A stretch of DNA of 55,717 nt, from positions 1 to 55,717 of the forward strand of contig JACSRI010000192.1 of assembly GCA_014879845.1 (NCBI GenBank), given 5' to 3'. Origin of the DNA: Opitutaceae bacterium. Lineage in GTDB: Bacteria > Verrucomicrobiota > Verrucomicrobiia > Opitutales > Opitutaceae. Both the position numbers and the translations under genes were made by a program. Shown here one piece after another: positions 1,934 through 12,221 of the stretch. Numbering within the stretch: the first letter of the stretch is position 1; each line of letters starts with the position of its first letter. The notes beneath the pieces are model-generated. The model was not told where the DNA came from, ran no database searches, and was given only the letters and a program-made list of their open reading frames with translations.

Positions 1934-2647
1934 ATGCATTCCCCCGCACCCGTCACGACCCTCGGCTTCGACGCCGACGACACGCTCTGGCACAACGAGT
2001 CGATCTTCGAGGAGGCCCATCGCCGCTACTGCGGGCTTCTCTCGCGCTGGCATGACACCGAGACGGTCGAGCGCACCCTCTTCGCCACGGAGATGCGCAA
2101 CCTCGAACTCTTCGGCTACGGCATCAAGTCCCACGCGCTCTCCTCCATCGAGACGGCGATCGCGATGACGCAGGGGCAGATCAGCAGCGAGGAGATCCGC
2201 GCCATCGTCGATCTCGCCAAGGGCATGCTCGCGCATCCGGTCGAGCTGCTCGAAGGGGCCGCGGAGGTCGTACCCGCGCTGGCCCGACGCTACCGGCTCG
2301 TCCTGCTGACCAAGGGCGACCTGCGCGACCAGGAGCGCAAGCTGCGCAAGAGCGGGCTCGAGCCGCATTTCGCGCAGGTGGAGATCCTCTCGGAGAAAGA
2401 TACGTCGATCTACCAGCGCGTCTTCGCACGCCACGGCATCGCCCCGGAGCAGTTCCTCATGGTGGGCAACTCGCTCAAGTCCGACATCCTGCCCGTGCTC
2501 GATCTCGGCGGCCGCGCCGTCTACGTGCCGTATCGCATCACCTGGCAGGCCGAGCGGGCCGAGCCACCGAAGGATCCCGCGCAAGCCTCGCGGTTTTTCC
2601 AGATTCAGTCGCTGCGCGAACTGCCCGATCTGTTGGCGCGCCTTTAG
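1934..2647 (+). CDS. HAD-family hydrolase
   Basis: 237-residue cytosolic haloacid-dehalogenase-type hydrolase, probably a phosphatase of a small phosphorylated metabolite. Motif I is F-D-A-D-D-T (nucleophile Asp13, acid/base Asp15). The Thr of motif II is in LLTKGD (about residues 123-128), the motif III Lys in SEKDTSIY, and the motif IV acid in GNSLKSD. The long helical insert after motif I marks a type-I cap (YjjG/phosphoglycolate-phosphatase-like). The substrate cannot be told from sequence. The stop overlaps the stop of the convergent kinase gene by 4 nt (2644-2647), so the two transcripts share their 3' ends. Confidence 0.85.
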   Translation: MHSPAPVTTLGFDADDTLWHNESIFEEAHRRYCGLLSRWHDTETVERTLFATEMRNLELFGYGIKSHALSSIETAIAMTQGQISSEEIRAIVDLAKGMLAHPVELLEGAAEVVPALARRYRLVLLTKGDLRDQERKLRKSGLEPHFAQVEILSEKDTSIYQRVFARHGIAPEQFLMVGNSLKSDILPVLDLGGRAVYVPYRITWQAERAEPPKDPAQASRFFQIQSLRELPDLLARL

Positions 2648-4146
2648 GCCTCCGGCTGGCGCAGCAGTGCCACGAGATCCGCCGCGGCAAACGGCTTGGG
2701 CAACACATGCACCGGGCCGTGCTGGGTCTGCTGCACGCCCGGACGCGCGAGCGAGCCGGAGACGAGCACGATCGGCAGCCCGCGCCTGACCGTGCGCAGA
2801 TAGCCGACGAGCGCACACTCCTTGACCGCGCCCACGGAATCGAGCACGGCCGCCGCCAACTGGTCGCGGAACTGCTCGGCCAGCAGGATCGCATCGTCGG
2901 CCGCGCCGGCGGAGATCGTCCGGAATCCCGATTCACGCAACCCCGCCTCAAGCATGCCGAGAAACTCCCGGTCATCGTCGGCGAGAAGGACGAGACCACC
3001 CTGCGGGACGGCCACCGCGCCGGCATCAGCCACTGGCGTGGCCTCCGGCACCCGGGTCGCGGCCGGCAGCGTGAGCCGGAAGCACGCGCCAGCGGTCGCC
3101 GTCACTTGCACGAGATCCCCCCCGAGCCCGCGCGCGAGGCGGCGCGCCGCGGCGAGGCCCACGCCGCGTCCGCGGCCCTTGGAGGAGACGAACGGCTCGA
3201 ACAGCCGGCCCGTGACGGCCTCAGGCACGCCCGGGCCGTTGTCGGTAATGGTGAGATGGAGACGGCTGCGGTTCGCGTCGAGCGACGCGGTCGCTTTGAT
3301 CGCGGGCTCGGGATGCCCGGTGAGCGCCTCGACCGCGTTGGTGAAGAGGTTGAGCACGATCTCGAGGAGCTGCGCCTCGTTGACCCGCACGGTGCAGCCC
3401 TCGGCCGCACGCGCATCGATCTCGATCGTCACCTCGCGCTCGCGCCGTGCCACGTGGGAGGCGAGGCGGCAGGCCTCGGTGAGGGCGCGAGCAGCGTCAC
3501 ACACCTTCATCTCCGGCGCCCGGCCCGTGGAGAAGTCCCGGACGTTGCGGATGAGCTGGGCCATGCGCCGCAGGAACGTGCGCTGCTCCTCGACATCCTG
3601 CGGCGTGTGATCGCCGATGTCGGTGAGCATCATCGCGCCGCCGAGCAGGTTGTTGAGATCGTGCAGGATGCCGTCGGCCATGCGACCCAACGACTCGAGA
3701 TGGCGGCGCTCGGCGTTCTGCTCCATCGCATCGAGCAGGCGCTGCTGGGCCTCCTTGCGTGCGGTGATGTCGATGCGCAACGCGCAGTAGTGCGTGATCC
3801 GTCCGGTGGAGTCGCGCAGCGGCGAGATCGTCGACTCGACCCAGTAGAACCGCCCGTCGCGCGCGCGGTTGCAGATCTCGCCCGTCCACACCTCCCCGTG
3901 CGCCACCACGCGCCACATCTCGCGATAGAACTCCGCGGGATGCTGGCCGGACTTGAGGATCCGGTGGTTCTGCCCGATCAACTCCTCCCGCGGATACCCG
4001 GAGATGCGGGCAAACGTCTCGTTCGCGTAGACGATCGTGCCCTTCAGATCGGTGATCGCGATGATGCCGGTCTCGTCGAAAAACCGCAGCGTCGCCGCGC
4101 GCACGTGATCGGGAAGCTGACCGAGATCCTGATAGAGGCCGCTCAT
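2644..4146 (-). CDS. soluble hybrid sensor histidine kinase (PAS-HK-REC)
   Basis: 500 residues counted from the ATG at 4146; a TTG 13 codons upstream (4185) is a weaker alternative. No membrane segment. Order: PAS with PAC (about 15-130, WVESTISPLRDSTGRI), a HisKA-type dimerisation region with phospho-acceptor His162 in GILHDLNNLLGG (the ntrB/zraS-like HDLNN form), and HATPase (N-box LFTNAVEAL near 267, G1 DNGPGVP near 302, G2 GRGRGVGLA near 325). A C-terminal receiver has acid pocket 390-392, Asp436 and Lys484. Asp436 is followed by SVGA rather than the usual xxMP, so the receiver is divergent. It lies downstream of the motor operon on the same strand, behind a probable terminator, so a link to motility is only suggested by position. 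Confidence 0.85.
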   Translation of the reverse strand: MSGLYQDLGQLPDHVRAATLRFFDETGIIAITDLKGTIVYANETFARISGYPREELIGQNHRILKSGQHPAEFYREMWRVVAHGEVWTGEICNRARDGRFYWVESTISPLRDSTGRITHYCALRIDITARKEAQQRLLDAMEQNAERRHLESLGRMADGILHDLNNLLGGAMMLTDIGDHTPQDVEEQRTFLRRMAQLIRNVRDFSTGRAPEMKVCDAARALTEACRLASHVARREREVTIEIDARAAEGCTVRVNEAQLLEIVLNLFTNAVEALTGHPEPAIKATASLDANRSRLHLTITDNGPGVPEAVTGRLFEPFVSSKGRGRGVGLAAARRLARGLGGDLVQVTATAGACFRLTLPAATRVPEATPVADAGAVAVPQGGLVLLADDDREFLGMLEAGLRESGFRTISAGAADDAILLAEQFRDQLAAAVLDSVGAVKECALVGYLRTVRRGLPIVLVSGSLARPGVQQTQHGPVHVLPKPFAAADLVALLRQPEA

Positions 4147-4652: not shown

Positions 4653-5399
4653 TCAGGTATCCGTGCGCTGGATCGGCGGGATGAGCACGAAGCTGAGCTC
4701 GACGCGATCGTTGGCATTGTTGGCCGGCGGCTTGCCGGGCAGCGGCGCCGTGTCGGCAAAACCCGTCACGCGCTCGAACTTGTCGGCGGGCACGGCGAAG
4801 TGCTGGAGGGCGCGGCGCATGGCGTTGGCGCGGTCGGCCGAGAGTTCCCAGCCTGTGTATTCAGGTCGTGGAGGCTCGAAGCCCGCGGCCACGTGGCCGT
4901 CGATGCGCACGGAGAAAGGCCGCTGCGCGAGCATCCAGGCGAGATTCTGCACCACGAAGGTGCCCCACTCCGTGAACTCGGCGGAGCTGTCCTTGAAGAC
5001 GGGCCGGTCGGCGCGGTCGTAGACGGTGACACGCAGGCCGTCGTTGGTCACGGTGACGTCGACGGGCGTGTTCGTCTGCGTGTCCTCGATCGCGAGCATG
5101 CGGTAGAAGTCGCGCGCGAGCTTGTTGAGCAGCGTCACCTCGTTGAGCGAGGACTCGCTGTTCTCGTCCGGGGCGGAACCCTGGGCGTTGCCCTCGCCGG
5201 CGCCGGCCGTGAGCACGCCGGCGGAGTTGTCCATGGGCGAGTCGAAGGGGTTCTGGAAGTAGCGCGAGGTCGCGATGAGGATCTCTTTGTCCTGCGCGGA
5301 AATCCACAGCACCATGAACAGCGCCATCATGGCCGTGACGAAGTCGGCATAGGCCACCTTCCACGCACCGCCGTGATGCTCGTGCTTCTTCTTGGCCAT
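4653..5399 (-). CDS. motB: flagellar motor stator protein MotB
   Basis: 248 residues; the peptidoglycan-anchored half of the stator ion channel. The N-terminus is basic, then WKVAYADFVTAMMALFMVLW gives the single membrane helix with Asp19, the ion-carrying acid. A linker rich in small residues (about 50-85) leads to an OmpA/MotB-type peptidoglycan-binding domain (about 120-240: IDGHVAAG, ELSADRANAMRRAL, NDRVELSFV). The usual NRR is replaced by NDR. It lies 12 nt after motA, as is normal for the pair. Confidence 0.93.
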   Translation of the reverse strand: MAKKKHEHHGGAWKVAYADFVTAMMALFMVLWISAQDKEILIATSRYFQNPFDSPMDNSAGVLTAGAGEGNAQGSAPDENSESSLNEVTLLNKLARDFYRMLAIEDTQTNTPVDVTVTNDGLRVTVYDRADRPVFKDSSAEFTEWGTFVVQNLAWMLAQRPFSVRIDGHVAAGFEPPRPEYTGWELSADRANAMRRALQHFAVPADKFERVTGFADTAPLPGKPPANNANDRVELSFVLIPPIQRTDT

Positions 5400-5411: not shown

Positions 5412-6275
5412 TTACTTGGCGGCGAGGGCGGCCTTCAGCGCGTGCTCGAGCTCGTCGGACGGCGGCACGAGCGAGGCGTCGAGGCTGCGGCGTGCGATCT
5501 CGATCGCCATGATCGGGGCGAGGCCGCGGGCAAATGACGAGATCGCCGTCGCCATCGCCTGGAAATACTTGGTCTCGGACTCCTCGTTGAACTTGATGCG
5601 GTTGGCCAGGGGATTGACGAACCCGTAGGCGCCGAGCACGCCGAGGAACGTGCCGGTGAGCGCGGCCGCGACCTTCTCGCCGACGGCCTCGGGGCCCTCG
5701 GCGATGGCGCTCATCGTGTTGATGATGCCGAGCACCGCGGCGACGATGCCGATGCCGGGGAGCGAGTCGCCCACAAGCTGGAGCACAGTGATGGGCGCGT
5801 GGCCCTCCTGCTCCTTCGTGTCGATCTCCGCCTGGAGCAGCGGCTGGAGCTGGTCGGGCTTGATCTTGCCGTCGATGATCGGCTTGAGGCCGTTGCAGAG
5901 GAACTCGAGGCGGTGCTTGTTGGCGAGGAACCGCGGGTACTTGCGGAAGATAGCGCTGTTCTCGGGATTGGAGACGTGCTCGTCGAGGGCGATGAGGCCG
6001 CTCTTCTTGCCCGTCATGAACAGCTCATAGAGGATCTTGAAGAGGTCCAGGTAGTCATCGCGCCCGGGCAAGCCGCCCTTGATCGCGACCATGACGCCGT
6101 GGATCACATCCATGAGCACCTTCTTCGGGCTGGCGATGATGAGCACGCCGCCCGCGATGCCGCCGATCACGATGAACTCGGATACGTGCAGCAGCAACAC
6201 GGGCTGGCCGCCGGCGACCATGAAGCCACCGAGCGTGGCTCCAAGGACGACAAGATATCCGATCAGGATCAGCAT
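5412..6275 (-). CDS. motA: flagellar motor stator protein MotA
   Basis: 287 residues with four membrane helices: two at the N-terminus (residues 1-22 and 33-50) and two near 155-215. Between them is a long cytosolic loop containing KKSGLIALDEHVSNPENSAIF-like sequence, the region that meets FliG. The prolines and glycines of GDSLPGIGIVAAVLGI line the channel in the family. The N-terminus (LILIGYLVVLGATLGGF) is close to the proton-type MotA of enterobacteria, so proton drive is likelier than sodium; this is inference. It is 20 nt behind fliA in one operon. Confidence 0.95.
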   Translation of the reverse strand: MLILIGYLVVLGATLGGFMVAGGQPVLLLHVSEFIVIGGIAGGVLIIASPKKVLMDVIHGVMVAIKGGLPGRDDYLDLFKILYELFMTGKKSGLIALDEHVSNPENSAIFRKYPRFLANKHRLEFLCNGLKPIIDGKIKPDQLQPLLQAEIDTKEQEGHAPITVLQLVGDSLPGIGIVAAVLGIINTMSAIAEGPEAVGEKVAAALTGTFLGVLGAYGFVNPLANRIKFNEESETKYFQAMATAISSFARGLAPIMAIEIARRSLDASLVPPSDELEHALKAALAAK

Positions 6276-6295: not shown

Positions 6296-7099
6296 TTACT
6301 TGTGCATGATATTCGTCAGATACGTGCGCAGGCTGAGGATGGCCTGGGAATGGATCTGGCAGATGCGCGACTCGGTGAGGCCGAAGACCGCCGCGATTTC
6401 CGCCAGGCGCATGTCCTCGTAGTAGTACATCGCGAGCACCTTGCGCGGCACCTCGGGAAGCTGGTTGATGCGCTCGGCCACGAGGACCTTGAGCTCATCC
6501 TTCTCCATCTTGTCGGTGACGGTGGTGAGCGTGTCGTCCGCGATGACCTCGTAGAGATTGGTGTCGTCGCCGTCGTCGCCGGACGGGCTGTGGTCGAGCG
6601 GCAGGAAGCTGATCGGGCGCACCTCGTCCATGAGCTCCTCGTACTCCTGGGGCGAGAGCTTGAGCTCGCCGCGGACCTCCTCCTCGCTGGCGGGTCGGCC
6701 GAGCTTTTGCTCGAGTTCCTCGACCGTCTTGCGCAGGCGCTTGAAATTGGTGCGGGCGTTGCGCGGCATCCAGTCCATGCGGCGAAGCTCGTCGAGGATC
6801 GCACCGCGGATGCGCATGGCTGCGTAGGAGCCGAAGGACTTCTTCTGCGTGGGATCGTACTTCTTGAGCGCCGCGATCAAGCCCGCCAGACCCACGCTGT
6901 AGAGGTCCTCCTCCTCGATGTGGGGGGGCAGGTTGATTTTGATGCGGGCGACGATGGACTTCACGATCGGGAGGTAGAGTTGGAGCAACTCTTCCTGGGA
7001 CTCGGGCGGCGTGGCGGTGGCCTTCTTGTAGGCCTTGGCGACGCGGGAGCGGCTGGCAGGGGCTTCGGAGGTTTCGGACGGATGATCGGCGCGCTTCAT
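6296..7099 (-). CDS. fliA: flagellar sigma factor FliA (sigma-28/WhiG family)
   Basis: 267 residues from the ATG at 7099, which has GAGG seven bases upstream; an upstream start at 7153 adds 18 unconserved residues. Region 2 (ELLQLYLPIVKSIVARI, EEDLYSVGLAGLIAALKKYD, SFGSYAAMRIRGAILDELR) recognises the -10 element. Region 3 follows (RKTVEELEQKLGRPASEEEV). Region 4 (LPEVPRKVLAMYYYEDMRLAEIAAVFGLTESRICQIHSQAI) carries the -35 helix-turn-helix. It heads fliA-motA-motB. A candidate FliA-type promoter in this window is in front of cheR. The anti-sigma gene flgM is not here. Confidence 0.93.
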   Translation of the reverse strand: MKRADHPSETSEAPASRSRVAKAYKKATATPPESQEELLQLYLPIVKSIVARIKINLPPHIEEEDLYSVGLAGLIAALKKYDPTQKKSFGSYAAMRIRGAILDELRRMDWMPRNARTNFKRLRKTVEELEQKLGRPASEEEVRGELKLSPQEYEELMDEVRPISFLPLDHSPSGDDGDDTNLYEVIADDTLTTVTDKMEKDELKVLVAERINQLPEVPRKVLAMYYYEDMRLAEIAAVFGLTESRICQIHSQAILSLRTYLTNIMHK

Positions 7100-7456: not shown

Positions 7457-7717
7457 TTACGATTTCGGGCCGGCCGGGGCCGCTTTCTTCATGGCCTCGG
7501 CCGTGGCCTCCTGAATCTGGGCGGTGCGCTTTTCCTCCAGGGAGGCCTTCACCGAACGCGCCATCAATCCGTACAACCACCGTATGAGCAAAGCGGCGAC
7601 GACCGCGGCGATCGCGGCCTCCATCACGATGCGCCCGGGATCGCGGCCCACGACAAAACCCGCCGCGCTCACGCCCGCGAACGCGACAAAACCACCGATG
7701 GCCATGAGGAACTTCAT
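7457..7717 (-). CDS. 86-aa two-helix membrane protein coupled to flhF
   Basis: The ATG at 7717 has a perfect AAGGAGG six bases upstream, lying inside the flhF coding sequence, and overlaps the flhF stop as ATGA. The protein has a first hydrophobic helix (about 1-22, MAIGGFVAFAGVSAAGFVVG), a second (about 29-47, MEAAIAAVVAALLIRWLYG) and a charged Lys/Glu/Ala-rich cytosolic tail (about 50-86, VKASLEEKRTAQIQEATAEA) that is probably helical. I do not recognise the family. It occupies the position where flhG lies in fla/che-type operons. The long gap to fliA makes it the last gene of the upstream operon. Confidence 0.75.
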   Translation of the reverse strand: MKFLMAIGGFVAFAGVSAAGFVVGRDPGRIVMEAAIAAVVAALLIRWLYGLMARSVKASLEEKRTAQIQEATAEAMKKAAPAGPKS

Positions 7718-8862
7718 GCGCGGCCTCCTTCCGTCCCAGCTCCCTGCGCGAGACCGCGCGGGAACGTGCGCGCGAGCAGCGCGCCGAAGACATCCTCCTC
7801 GATCTCGCCCGCCGGACTCGGGCCGGCGCTGAGGAAGAGCGGACGCAGCCCGCTCTGCAGGACGTAGCGCCAGAGCTTGCCCGGGCGGCGGACCTCGTCG
7901 AGATGCGTGAAGACCAGGTGCGTGGCGCCGCACGCGCGGCCCATCTCGATCGTGTCGGCGATCACCTCGGCCTCGCTCGCGGCATTCACGACCAGGATAC
8001 GCGTGTCGACGCGCAGGGCGTCGAGCATGCCGGCGAGATGCTTGTGCTCGGCATGCGCGTCGAGACCGACGCCGGGGACGTCGACATAGAGCAGGCTGGA
8101 TCGGTCAAACTCCTCGACCTCGGCGGCCGAGCGCAGGAGCGGCGCGCCCAGCACGTCGCTGAAGGCGGCGAGACCGTCGCTCGCATTCGGCTGGTCGCCG
8201 TCGAGCTTGAGGATCGCGGGCTTGCGGCCGTGGACGAACACGTCGAGGGCGATGGCCTTGCACAGCGCGGTGGTCTTCCCCACCCCGCAGGTGCCGAGGT
8301 AGACGCGGCGCGGGCCGGCGGGACGACGCGGCACGCGATCGTAGTTTTTCCTCAACCACGCCACGAGGTGCGCGAGCGCCTCGGGCAGCGGCGTGCGGTC
8401 CCAGTCGAGGTCGGGAGTCTCGGCGCGGACGCGGTCGATGAGCGTCTCATCCAGCCCGCTCGCGCGCAGCAAGGAAACCGAGCGGCGCGGAGCCGCGGGC
8501 TCGGCCGGGGCCTCCGCGCGCGATTCCGCCACCGGACGCACGAACGCGGCCGGCGCAGCGGAGGCGGCCAGAAGCTGCTCGGCGGCGGAGTCGCCCTCGG
8601 CGAGGGCCGGCGCGGCCGCACTCGTCGCGGGAGCCCCACCCACCTCGACGATGACCTCAAGGCGCGGCTTCTGCAGGAAGCGTCCGAGTCCGCCGGCCTC
8701 GATCTGGCGCACGGCGAGCACGCGGGCGCCTGCGCCAAAGCGCTCCTGCACGAGACGGACGGCCTCGGCGGCCGAGCGCACAACGAGGCGGTACTGCACC
8801 GGCGCGGCGGCAGGCTGGGTCTGCGGGGCGGAGGATTCGGGTTTCCGTGAGGCCTGGGTCAT
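7714..8862 (-). CDS. flhF: divergent FlhF-like SRP-type GTPase
   Basis: 382 residues. FlhF is an SRP-related GTPase that sets flagellar position and number. The N-domain (about 22-75) has the usual YRLVVRSAAEAVRLVQERFG pattern, then an Ala-rich linker and the NG domain from about 130. The P-loop is intact (GTCGVGKTT, 190-198). Other motifs have drifted: the G2 DTYR-type motif reads DGDQPNAS, the G3 DTAG reads DVPG (261-264), and the G4 TKLD reads THLD (319-322). GTP binding may be altered. It lies 42 nt after flhA. No flhG follows; the 86-aa gene takes its place. Confidence 0.85.
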   Translation of the reverse strand: MTQASRKPESSAPQTQPAAAPVQYRLVVRSAAEAVRLVQERFGAGARVLAVRQIEAGGLGRFLQKPRLEVIVEVGGAPATSAAAPALAEGDSAAEQLLAASAAPAAFVRPVAESRAEAPAEPAAPRRSVSLLRASGLDETLIDRVRAETPDLDWDRTPLPEALAHLVAWLRKNYDRVPRRPAGPRRVYLGTCGVGKTTALCKAIALDVFVHGRKPAILKLDGDQPNASDGLAAFSDVLGAPLLRSAAEVEEFDRSSLLYVDVPGVGLDAHAEHKHLAGMLDALRVDTRILVVNAASEAEVIADTIEMGRACGATHLVFTHLDEVRRPGKLWRYVLQSGLRPLFLSAGPSPAGEIEEDVFGALLARTFPRGLAQGAGTEGGRA

Positions 8863-8904: not shown

Positions 8905-11124
8905 TCAGGCGGCGGCCGGCACGGCGGCCGGGGTGCTCACGGGCATGGGGGCACCGCGCAGGCCACCCGGCGGCAGCGAGACGATGCCGAAGGTCCGTAT
9001 CTCGATCTGCGACGGAAGCTCCTGGTAACTCAGCACGATGAGCTTGGGGAGCGACGGCTCGAAGAAGCGCTTGAACGCGAGGCGGATCTCCGCCGTCGTG
9101 ACCAGGATCGGCTGCATGCCCTTGCCGGTCATGTCGGCCACGCGCGTGTTGAGCTCGTTGAGCAAGTGCTGCGCGAGCTGCGGGTCGAGCGTGAGCGTGA
9201 TGTCGTAGGGCGTGCGCTGCACGCGCGAGAGCAGGTGCTGCTCGATACGCGGGTCGAGCGTCACGGCCTCGAGCACACCGGGCGAGGTCTCGAGTTCGGC
9301 CACGAAATACTCGCCGAGGCGGCGGCGGACCTGTTCGGCGAGGTCGTCGGGATTCTTCGAGATGTGGGCGTTGTCGGCCACGGCCTCGAGCACGAGAGGG
9401 AGATTGCGCACGGAGACGCCCTCGCGCAGGAGATTCTGGATCACACGCTGGATCACGCCGATGTTGACCAGGTCGGGCAGCAGCTCGGCCACGAGCGTGG
9501 GGTGCTTCTGCTTGACCACGTCGACCAGCGCCTGGACGTCCTGGCGCGTGAGCAGGTGGTGCGCGTGCTGGCGAATCGCCTCGGAGAGGTGCGTGACGAG
9601 CACCGAGCTGGCGTCGACCACGGAAAAGCCGTTGATCTCGGCCGACTTCCGCTCCTCCTCGCCGATCCAGACCGCGTCGATGCCGAAGACCGGCTCGACC
9701 GTCGGGATGCCGCGCAGCTGCACCTTGCTGCCAGCGACATTCATGGCGAGCCAGCGCTTGGGCATGAGACGGCTGCGGCCGATTTCCTTGCCGCGCAGGA
9801 GGAAGCGGTACTCGTTCGTATCCAGTTCCAGGTTATCGCGCACGGCGATGGGCGGCACGACGAGGCCGAGCTCGCGGGCGATCGTCTTGCGCACGCCGGT
9901 GATGCGGTCGAGCAGGTCGCCGTTCTGCGCGCGGTCGGCCAGGGCCACGACATTGTAACCGAGCTCGATGGCGAAGGGCTCGCTCTCGATGAGCTTCTCG
10001 AACTCGGCGCCGATCGTGCCGGGCGCGGCGGCGGCGGGAGCGGCCCCGGCGGCCTGCGGTGCACCCGCGGGCGCGGCACCGGCGCGGGCGCCCTCGGCCT
10101 TGGCCGGCGCGGCAGACTCGGCGGCCGCGGCCGCAGCGAGCGCCGCCTGCTTCTTGCGCAGCACCCAGCCGACGTAGCCGGTGATCGCAGCCGTGACGAG
10201 GAACGGCACCATCGGCATGCCGGGCACGATCGCGAACACGCCGAGCATCGCGGAGAGCACGAGCATCGCGCGCGGGTAGGCGGTGAGCTGCTGGGTGATA
10301 TGCGAGCCGAGGTCGTCCGTGTCGGACGTGCGCGTGACGAGCACGCCGGCCGCGAGCGAAACAATGAGGGCCGGGATCTGCGACACGAGGCCGTCGCCGA
10401 TGGAGAGCAGCGTGAACTTCTGCAGCGACTCCGTGAGCGAGAGGTCCATCTGCAGCACGCCGATGATGATGCCGCCCACGACATTGATCAGCGTGATCAC
10501 GATGCCCGCCATGGCGTCGCCGCGGACGAACTTCGAGGCGCCGTCCATCGCGCCGTAGAAGTCGGCCTCCTTCTGGATCTTCAGGCGGCGCTTCGTCGCC
10601 GTGCCCTCGTCGATCAGGCCGGCGTTGAGCTCGGCGTCGATCGCCATCTGCTTGCCGGGCATGGCATCGAGCGTGAAGCGCGCGGCCACCTCGGCGATGC
10701 GCCCCGCGCCCTTGGTGATCACGACGAAATTGATCACCACGAGAATGAGGAACACAACCGAACCCACGACGTAGTTGCCGCGCACGACGAAGTTGCCGAA
10801 CGCCTCGATCACGTGGCCGGCGAAACCGTCGAGCAGGATGAGTCGCGTCGACGCGATGTTCAGGCCGAGCCGGAAGAGCGTCACGCCGAGCAGGATTGTC
10901 GGGAAACTGGAAAACTCCGGCGCATCCTTCACGTAGATGATGGTGAGGAGGATGAGCAGCGAGATGCCGATGCTCGCCGCGAGCAGCACGTCCAGCAGCG
11001 CGGACGGCACCGGGATGATCATCAGCACGACCGTGCCGAAGAGGGCGCCGGTGAGCAGCAGGTCGCCGCTGGTGAACAGGCCGGCGAGTCCGCGACGCTT
11101 GGTTTGGGGAGTGGTGGTGCTCAT
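8905..11124 (-). CDS. flhA: flagellar export gate protein FlhA
   Basis: 739 residues; the largest component of the flagellar type III export gate, in the inner membrane under the basal body. The N-terminal part (about 20-325) has eight hydrophobic segments with the FHIPEP-type cytosolic loop (KGAGRIAEVAARFTLDAMPGKQMAIDAELNAG). The C-terminal cytosolic platform runs from about 375. The linker at about 328-370 is a long Ala/Gly/Pro-rich stretch, which makes the protein longer than the usual 690-700. The start ATG at 11124 overlaps the flhB stop by 4 nt; a far longer frame upstream is only flhB antiphase. Confidence 0.95.
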   Translation of the reverse strand: MSTTTPQTKRRGLAGLFTSGDLLLTGALFGTVVLMIIPVPSALLDVLLAASIGISLLILLTIIYVKDAPEFSSFPTILLGVTLFRLGLNIASTRLILLDGFAGHVIEAFGNFVVRGNYVVGSVVFLILVVINFVVITKGAGRIAEVAARFTLDAMPGKQMAIDAELNAGLIDEGTATKRRLKIQKEADFYGAMDGASKFVRGDAMAGIVITLINVVGGIIIGVLQMDLSLTESLQKFTLLSIGDGLVSQIPALIVSLAAGVLVTRTSDTDDLGSHITQQLTAYPRAMLVLSAMLGVFAIVPGMPMVPFLVTAAITGYVGWVLRKKQAALAAAAAAESAAPAKAEGARAGAAPAGAPQAAGAAPAAAAPGTIGAEFEKLIESEPFAIELGYNVVALADRAQNGDLLDRITGVRKTIARELGLVVPPIAVRDNLELDTNEYRFLLRGKEIGRSRLMPKRWLAMNVAGSKVQLRGIPTVEPVFGIDAVWIGEEERKSAEINGFSVVDASSVLVTHLSEAIRQHAHHLLTRQDVQALVDVVKQKHPTLVAELLPDLVNIGVIQRVIQNLLREGVSVRNLPLVLEAVADNAHISKNPDDLAEQVRRRLGEYFVAELETSPGVLEAVTLDPRIEQHLLSRVQRTPYDITLTLDPQLAQHLLNELNTRVADMTGKGMQPILVTTAEIRLAFKRFFEPSLPKLIVLSYQELPSQIEIRTFGIVSLPPGGLRGAPMPVSTPAAVPAAA

Positions 11125-12221
11125 GCGACGAGGCCAAGGCGGCGGGCCTTGAGACGGTGGAAGTAGTAGCGGTGCGTGCGGTAGACGAAGCCGAGGATCT
11201 CGGCCACGGCCTGGTAGAGCTGGACGGGGATCTCCTTGCCGACCTGGCCGTACTTGTAGAGGGCGCGGGCGACGGGCTTGTTCTCGACCATCGGCACCTC
11301 GTGCCGGGCGGCGAGTTCCTTGATCCGGCGCGCGAATACATCCCGGCCGCGGGCCACGACGACCGGGGCGCGGTCGCGGCCGCGTTCGTATTTCAGCGCG
11401 ACGGCGAAGTGGGTCGGGTTGGTCACGACCACGTCGGCCGTGGGAACGGCCTGGAGCATCTGGCGCTGCAGGAGCCGGCGCGCGAGGGCGCGCTGCGCGG
11501 CCTTCACGTGCGGGTCGATCTCCTGGTTCTTCCGCTCCTGTTTGACCTCCTCCTTGGTCATCATGAGGTCCTTGCTGGACTTGCGCCAGGCATGGAAGAA
11601 GCTGATCGCCGCGATGACCGAGACCGCGATGGCGATGCGCACGAGCATGTAGAGTGTCGTGTCGCCGATGAACGCGCCGACGTGGCCGACCGCCACGGGC
11701 GTGTAGAAGATCGGGTCGTCGAGGATGCGGCTGATCGCGGCCCAGAGCACCGCGCCGATGGCCCCGAGCTTGAGCAAGTCGATCCCGAGCCGCACGAAGA
11801 CATCCTTCGAGACGACGCGCTGGAAACCGGTCACGGGGTTGAGCCGCTCCCACTTGAACTCGAGGACTTTCGGCGTGAGCCGGAAACCCGTCTGCAGGCC
11901 GCCCGCCGTGATGCCGGCGAAAATCGCGGCCGCGACGATCGGAAACGCGAGCGAGCCCATGAAAACCATCGCCTGCTGCACCCAGTATTGGAGTCCCGAG
12001 GACGAAACCTCGAAGCGCTGCAGGTTGCCAAAGATGTAGGCGCCGACCTCCATCACGCGGCCGGCCACCCCCGGGGCGGCGAAGAGCAGCGCGACGAACG
12101 CCGCGATCAGGCTGAAGGCGATGGCCACGTCGGGAGACTGCGCAAACTGGCCATTCTCGAACGCCTCCTGCCGGCGCTTCGGCGTCGCCTCCTCGGTCTT
12201 GCTGGCTTGGTCCTCGGCCAT
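11121..12221 (-). CDS. flhB: flagellar export switch protein FlhB
   Basis: 366 residues. The N-terminus is typical (EDQASKTEEATPKRRQEAFENGQ), followed by four membrane helices (about 30-210) and the cytosolic autoprotease domain. The NPTH motif (Asn268-Pro269) is present. Self-cleavage there switches export from rod/hook to filament substrates after contact with FliK. It is 4 nt after fliR and overlaps flhA by 4 nt. Length and motif are normal for the family. Confidence 0.95.
   Translation of the reverse strand: MAEDQASKTEEATPKRRQEAFENGQFAQSPDVAIAFSLIAAFVALLFAAPGVAGRVMEVGAYIFGNLQRFEVSSSGLQYWVQQAMVFMGSLAFPIVAAAIFAGITAGGLQTGFRLTPKVLEFKWERLNPVTGFQRVVSKDVFVRLGIDLLKLGAIGAVLWAAISRILDDPIFYTPVAVGHVGAFIGDTTLYMLVRIAIAVSVIAAISFFHAWRKSSKDLMMTKEEVKQERKNQEIDPHVKAAQRALARRLLQRQMLQAVPTADVVVTNPTHFAVALKYERGRDRAPVVVARGRDVFARRIKELAARHEVPMVENKPVARALYKYGQVGKEIPVQLYQAVAEILGFVYRTHRYYFHRLKARRLGLVA

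Follow-up and report, generated by a model that had tools for sequence, protein, structure and literature searches.

FlhF with eroded GTPase motifs, no detected FlhG and a FlgV-like neighbour in a class of Verrucomicrobiota

FlhF, an SRP-type GTPase, is described as one half of a conserved molecular switch whose other half, FlhG, triggers its GTPase activity; according to a 2025 review, flhG is consistently located directly downstream of flhF (PMC12826062). The N-terminus of FlhF binds FliG, and the hydrolysis stimulated by FlhG allows assembly to proceed (PMC11236974). In Vibrio, FlhF shows GTPase activity only with FlhG. The R334A variant has no GTPase activity, yet its localisation and flagella resemble the wild type, GTP-binding mutants have no or fewer flagella, and GTPase mutants of FlhF in C. 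jejuni are altered in flagellar number and place (PMC6092412). In P. aeruginosa, contact with FliG persists in FlhF alleles that fail in hydrolysis or in binding, but R251G leads to the absence of swimming (PMC6855561). Among the titles and abstract openings of the literature searched, no report was found of an FlhF that lacks FlhG or is a pseudo-GTPase, nor of FlhF or FlhG in Verrucomicrobia.

Another known flagellar protein is FlgV, described by Zamba-Campero et al. in 2024, which has two TM helices, the second of them with a conserved arginine, and a polar cytoplasmic tail. Its gene is reported to lie always within the flagellar superoperon, flanked by the FlhF-FlhG module and the sigma-28 module, and homologues are reported in PVC bacteria including Verrucomicrobia. 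FlgV of Borrelia forms a basal-body ring at the MS/C-ring junction, and the C-terminus of type 1 members bears a conserved peptide that combines hydrophobic residues with a basic one (PMC11607428).

The locus considered here is part of a window of 55,717 nucleotides from an Opitutaceae bacterium (contig JACSRI010000192.1). Our preferred reading, with a probability of roughly 0.7, is that FlhG was lost early in this class, that FlhF now acts as a switchless adaptor for FliG, and that an 86-aa protein encoded beside it is a retained FlgV. The novelty would lie in the class-wide erosion of FlhF together with the absence of FlhG, as the small protein looks like the already known FlgV. The window carries a minus-strand flagellar block encoding FliP, FliQ, FliR, FlhB, FlhA, FlhF, the 86-aa protein, a sigma factor, MotA and MotB, which includes the following features.

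4656-5399, minus strand: motB, stop excluded (PF13677)
5415-6275, minus strand: motA, stop excluded (PF20560, PF01618)
6299-7099, minus strand: sigma factor of the FliA/WhiG family, sigma-28 type, the next gene downstream of the flgV-like gene; start codon chosen by us, stop excluded (TIGR02479, 236.5 bits, cut-off 189.6)
7457-7717, minus strand: flgV-like gene, 86 aa; predicted helical hairpin and charged tail, Arg46 in TM2
7714-8862, minus strand: flhF variant, 382 aa; FliG-interaction-like domain at 22-74, variable linker, N domain, G domain
8908-11124, minus strand: flhA, start chosen by us, stop excluded (PF00771, 857.2 bits)
11124-12221, minus strand: flhB, stop excluded (PF01312)

The original prediction, made from the letters of the window, described an FlhF with an intact P-loop and three deviant motifs, followed by a small gene whose start overlaps the flhF stop and whose ribosome-binding site lies inside flhF. 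All of these features are present: the P-loop reads GTCGVGKTT (Lys196), the G2, G3 and G4 regions read LDGDQPNA, VDVPGVG and FTHLDE, the overlap is ATGA, and AAGGAGG stands six bases ahead of the small gene's ATG. The canonical motifs DTxR, DTxGR and TKxD are absent from the window FlhF. With an intact P-loop, yet neither Thr nor Arg in G2, no Arg in G3 and no Lys in G4, the protein may bind nucleotide but is unlikely to hydrolyse it. Its score against the FlhF model TIGR03499 is 48.6 bits, below the cut-off of 174.15, and PF00448 (SRP54) gives 29.9 bits, above the cut-off of 22.7. Its AlphaFold model has an SRP54-type NG fold, with PDB fold matches that include FlhF (2px0, 2px3, 8r9r). At the N-terminus of the model, strands 22-28, 47-54 and 67-74 and a main helix at 31-42 make up the three-strand, one-helix arrangement of a FliG-interaction domain (FID), for which FliG binding is predicted.

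FlhG was searched for with a profile built from six outgroup proteins. The outgroups came from a phylum sample of 288 genomes, read at matches of E <= 1e-25 only, in which seven genomes outside the class have a motif-canonical FlhF, each with FlhG. The profile scored 379-470 bits in all seven, six of which had supplied it and one of which (G516, 379 bits) had not. In the window genome (277 contigs, 99.43% complete) it had no match at E <= 1e-12. Among the matches listed for the 55 family genomes with the FlhF variant, the window genome included, none exceeded 51.0 bits, and in 41 further class genomes no match exceeded 71.5 bits. Seven genomes with FlhF and no FlhG match are single contigs (G003, G004, G013, G020, G047, G308, G324). 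The absence of flhG beside flhF, as first claimed, is borne out, with none found by profile search in 96 class genomes; in neither the window nor the class is flhF directly followed by flhG. The original prediction would have fallen had flhG been found elsewhere in the window genome; none was, and it survives its own refutation tests. Given the rule that flhG follows flhF directly (PMC12826062), a class without FlhG is a notable exception.

A copy of flhG hidden elsewhere was rejected because profile scores were low in family and class genomes, with the exception of G069. This genome, a MAG of 75% completeness, gave the sole strong match among 100 family genomes (230 bits), the seven other listed matches being at or below 51.0 bits. 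Its contig of 3,475 bases holds a canonical FlhF, FlhG, an 86-aa two-TM-like frame and FliA; it is likely to be foreign contamination, and was excluded from the FlhF set described below. PF13614 has six matches in the window genome, four above the cut-off, and the best of them is nearest to RepA/ParA partition models, under their cut-offs.

The class set of FlhF comprised 96 related, non-independent sequences, 57 from the family and 39 from elsewhere in the class. Six outgroup FlhF sequences and that of the G069 contig, used for comparison, all have canonical motifs. The question raised at the outset, whether DVPG and THLD are lineage-wide, is answered by the loss of the G3 Arg (DTxGR) and the G4 Lys (TKxD) in 96/96, the latter being replaced by His in 91 and Gln in 5. 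The G2 Thr is kept in two sequences and lost in 94, and the G2 Arg is kept in 45. The TIGR03499 cut-off was reached by FlhF in none of the 286 genomes of a class sample, eight candidates being scored per genome, and was passed in only two of the seven outgroup genomes. Compared with the TIGR03499 family, the class FlhF shares the FID-like N-terminus, the variable linker, the NG fold and the position after flhA, but differs in its sub-cut-off score, the missing Arg and Lys, the lack of a detected FlhG and the replacement of the P-loop Lys in 45/96. Named records matched by the FlhF alignment belong to Opitutaceae/Opitutales and to Chthoniobacterales/Spartobacteria. In G027, the FlhF frame is split across two contigs.

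The best-surviving rival, which we still regard as unlikely, is that FlhF, its motifs rewired, remains an active GTPase and is stimulated either by some other MinD/ParA-like protein or by no partner at all. By alignment, the P-loop Thr/Ser is retained in 96/96, the G3 Asp in 95 and the G4 Asp in 93, residues that we take to be Mg and guanine sites; such selective retention, and a P-loop that is intact in 47/96, the window FlhF included, would suit an active enzyme. Against it stand the absence of the G3 Arg and the G4 Lys from every sequence and the state of the remaining P-loops: 49 are broken, 45 by replacement of the Lys (Arg 34, Ser 5, Cys 3, Ala 2, Thr 1) and 4 by destruction of the whole loop. 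An intact P-loop occurs together with the G2 Arg in only 8/96. In a quickly built tree from which the motif columns were omitted, class and outgroup FlhF separate with support of 98, subject to the caution that a long branch of the class (G124, G141) joins the outgroup. P-loop loss requires at least four changes on this tree, 36 of whose 100 inner branches are open, and is concentrated in two clades, one of 7 rows and one of 44; two rows within the larger one retain the Lys and an intact loop. The window FlhF is placed in a clade that has kept the Lys.

The second component of the locus is the small gene. The two membrane helices and charged tail first ascribed to its product are matched by a predicted helical hairpin, with helices at 2-23 and 27-79 in the model and a predicted topology of two TM segments plus a polar tail. 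Hydropathy gives two segments for the window protein and only one for some relatives. Arg46 in TM2 is R in 26/30 and 29/32 aligned relatives (alignments A2 and A5), and the position of Glu33 is D/E in 25/30 and 11/32, respectively; the C-terminal tails vary among relatives. Class and outgroup small proteins align in hhalign with a probability of 95.3 (E 2.4e-8, 64 columns), and the TM2 arginine is present in only 4/7 of the outgroup proteins. Assignment to a Pfam or NCBIfam family was rejected, SseC scoring 21.3 bits against a cut-off of 30.2, and MFS and others also staying below their cut-offs. A fold search with the small protein gave nothing at E <= 0.001. A further comparison is FipA, which differs from the small protein in being a single-TM DUF2802 protein. 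Like the small protein, this gamma-proteobacterial partner of FlhF is linked to that GTPase and to the formation of polar flagella (PMC11620751). FlgV type 1, the BB0268 family, shares two TM helices, the TM2 Arg, a polar tail and a location next to sigma-28 and the FlhF/FlhG module; it differs in that the class locus has no flhG between flhF and flgV, and the window protein is the shorter of the two, with 86 aa compared with a Borrelia gene of 480 bp (PMC11607428). Judged by features and position, the 86-aa protein fits this known basal-body ring protein.

The distribution of the small gene bears on whether it belongs to flhF. Alignment searches of the 100 family genomes found the small protein in 56, FlhF in 56 and both in 55, the single finds being G052 (small gene only) and G069 (FlhF only). 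In all of the first 30 loci, ours among them, flhF is immediately followed by the small gene in the same orientation, with a -4 overlap in nine. In G051 the small gene lies in two frames. In the 286-genome class sample, 101 genomes matched FlhF at E <= 1e-12, of which the 58 above 140 bits were counted and the rest (at or below 64.5 bits) taken as Ffh or FtsY. The small gene was found in 60 genomes and together with FlhF in 57, many of which had supplied rows to the search profiles; G259 has FlhF without it. The expected co-occurrence holds in the family, where the two genes adjoin in 57/57 genomes read with both (30, a further 25, G308 and G321), but only in part beyond it: they adjoin in 25/39 other class genomes and do not in 14, of which 13 carry a copy elsewhere.

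The small gene tracks fliA more faithfully than flhF. Of 100 genomes examined, 96 have it immediately upstream of fliA, including four in which FlhF was not found: G114 and G131, where it precedes fliA-motA-motB, G247, where motB lies further on, and G052. The exceptions are G014 and G055, short loci that end soon after the small gene; G004; and G259, in which no small gene was found. In L235, the G052 locus, C-runs of at least 12 bases lie between flhA and the small gene, at the expected flhF site; as these make assembly collapse likely, G052 was set aside. In the outgroups, a small two-TM gene lies directly after flhG in 7/7, with FliA next in 4/7; the G516 contig begins within flhF, so that just the tail of FlhF precedes FlhG.

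These positions weigh on the idea that the 86-aa protein took the place of FlhG and serves at the membrane as an anchor or regulator of FlhF. Adjacency to flhF throughout the family and in 25/39 further genomes, and presence in 57 of the 58 strong-FlhF genomes, many of them profile sources, would agree with it. The order found in the outgroups contradicts this part of the original prediction, since a gene that already follows flhG came first and is no substitute for it; the 13 class genomes with a copy away from flhF and the constant site before fliA, even where FlhF was not found, also oppose it, and we consider it very improbable, although the small protein may still act as an anchor or partner of FlhF. 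The broader proposal of a reworked flagellar module is supported by the altered FlhF, the lack of FlhG and the small gene beside flhF. Least probable of all is that FlhF is decaying toward loss with no role left, as the lack of detected FlhF in G114, G131 and G247 (MAGs of 85-94% completeness) might suggest, against which stand a frame present in 96 genomes and a mean pairwise identity of 43% in the FID and 40% in the G domain versus 15% in the linker (N domain, 25%).

Under the preferred reading of a switchless adaptor, the ancestral operon would have been flhB-flhA-flhF-flhG-flgV-fliA(-motA-motB), from which flhG disappeared at an early stage of the class, presumably in a single event. With FlhG, the known activator of the FlhF GTPase, lost, the catalytic parts of FlhF would therefore have decayed, probably first the G3 Arg, the G4 Lys and the G2 Thr, and later the P-loop Lys, which would have disappeared in two separate clades, provided that a lost Lys was never regained. 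Conservation and the model show that class FlhF keeps the FliG-binding-like N-terminal domain and the SRP-GTPase fold; it probably works as an adaptor, switchless or nucleotide-locked, through which FliG reaches the MS-ring. The 86-aa protein would be FlgV, an inner-membrane basal-body ring protein inherited from the ancestor. Because the P-loop Thr/Ser, the G3 and G4 Asp, 47/96 P-loops and 40% identity in the G domain are kept, nucleotide binding, and perhaps an unusual GTPase, may persist. The importance of the GTP switch in Vibrio, C. jejuni and P. aeruginosa counts against a switchless FlhF.

A further step, which we regard as speculative and rather doubtful, is that the whole class controls the placement and number of its flagella with FlhF as a pseudo-GTPase scaffold and without FlhG. 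In that case the GTP switch would have been abandoned, and the release of FliG for completion of the C-ring would be driven otherwise, possibly by FlgV at the MS/C-ring junction, the place at which FliG bound to FlhF must be handed over. With FlhG dropped and the catalytic and, in half of the class, nucleotide-binding motifs of FlhF eroded, these bacteria offer a natural experiment on the purpose of the GTP cycle. Opitutales include motile cocci, and one isolate, outside the genomes examined here, is described with one or two flagella (PMC13274419), so that flagellar number may stay low without FlhG.

Further FlgV-like copies occur in L248, L257, L258 and L259 (G329, G306, G217 and G128, respectively), with no FliA or MotA within about 1.5 kb on either side. 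Close to the copy in L258, the plus-strand frame at 2009-3211 starts with what we take to resemble a Cas9 RuvC-I segment. These second copies contrast with the published rule that all FlgV members lie in flagellar superoperons (PMC11607428). Within the window genome (G000), PF00448 was matched only by Ffh and the window FlhF, and FtsY was not found, probably owing to an assembly gap; at least three SRP-type matches are present in 14 of 19 FlhF-bearing family genomes, versus two here. Finally, flhF lies apart from flhA in L172, L173, L175, L176, L178, L179 and L180, in all seven of which the P-loop Lys is replaced by Ala or Ser. In L172, L173 and L180, a presumably flagellin-like frame is located near flhF.
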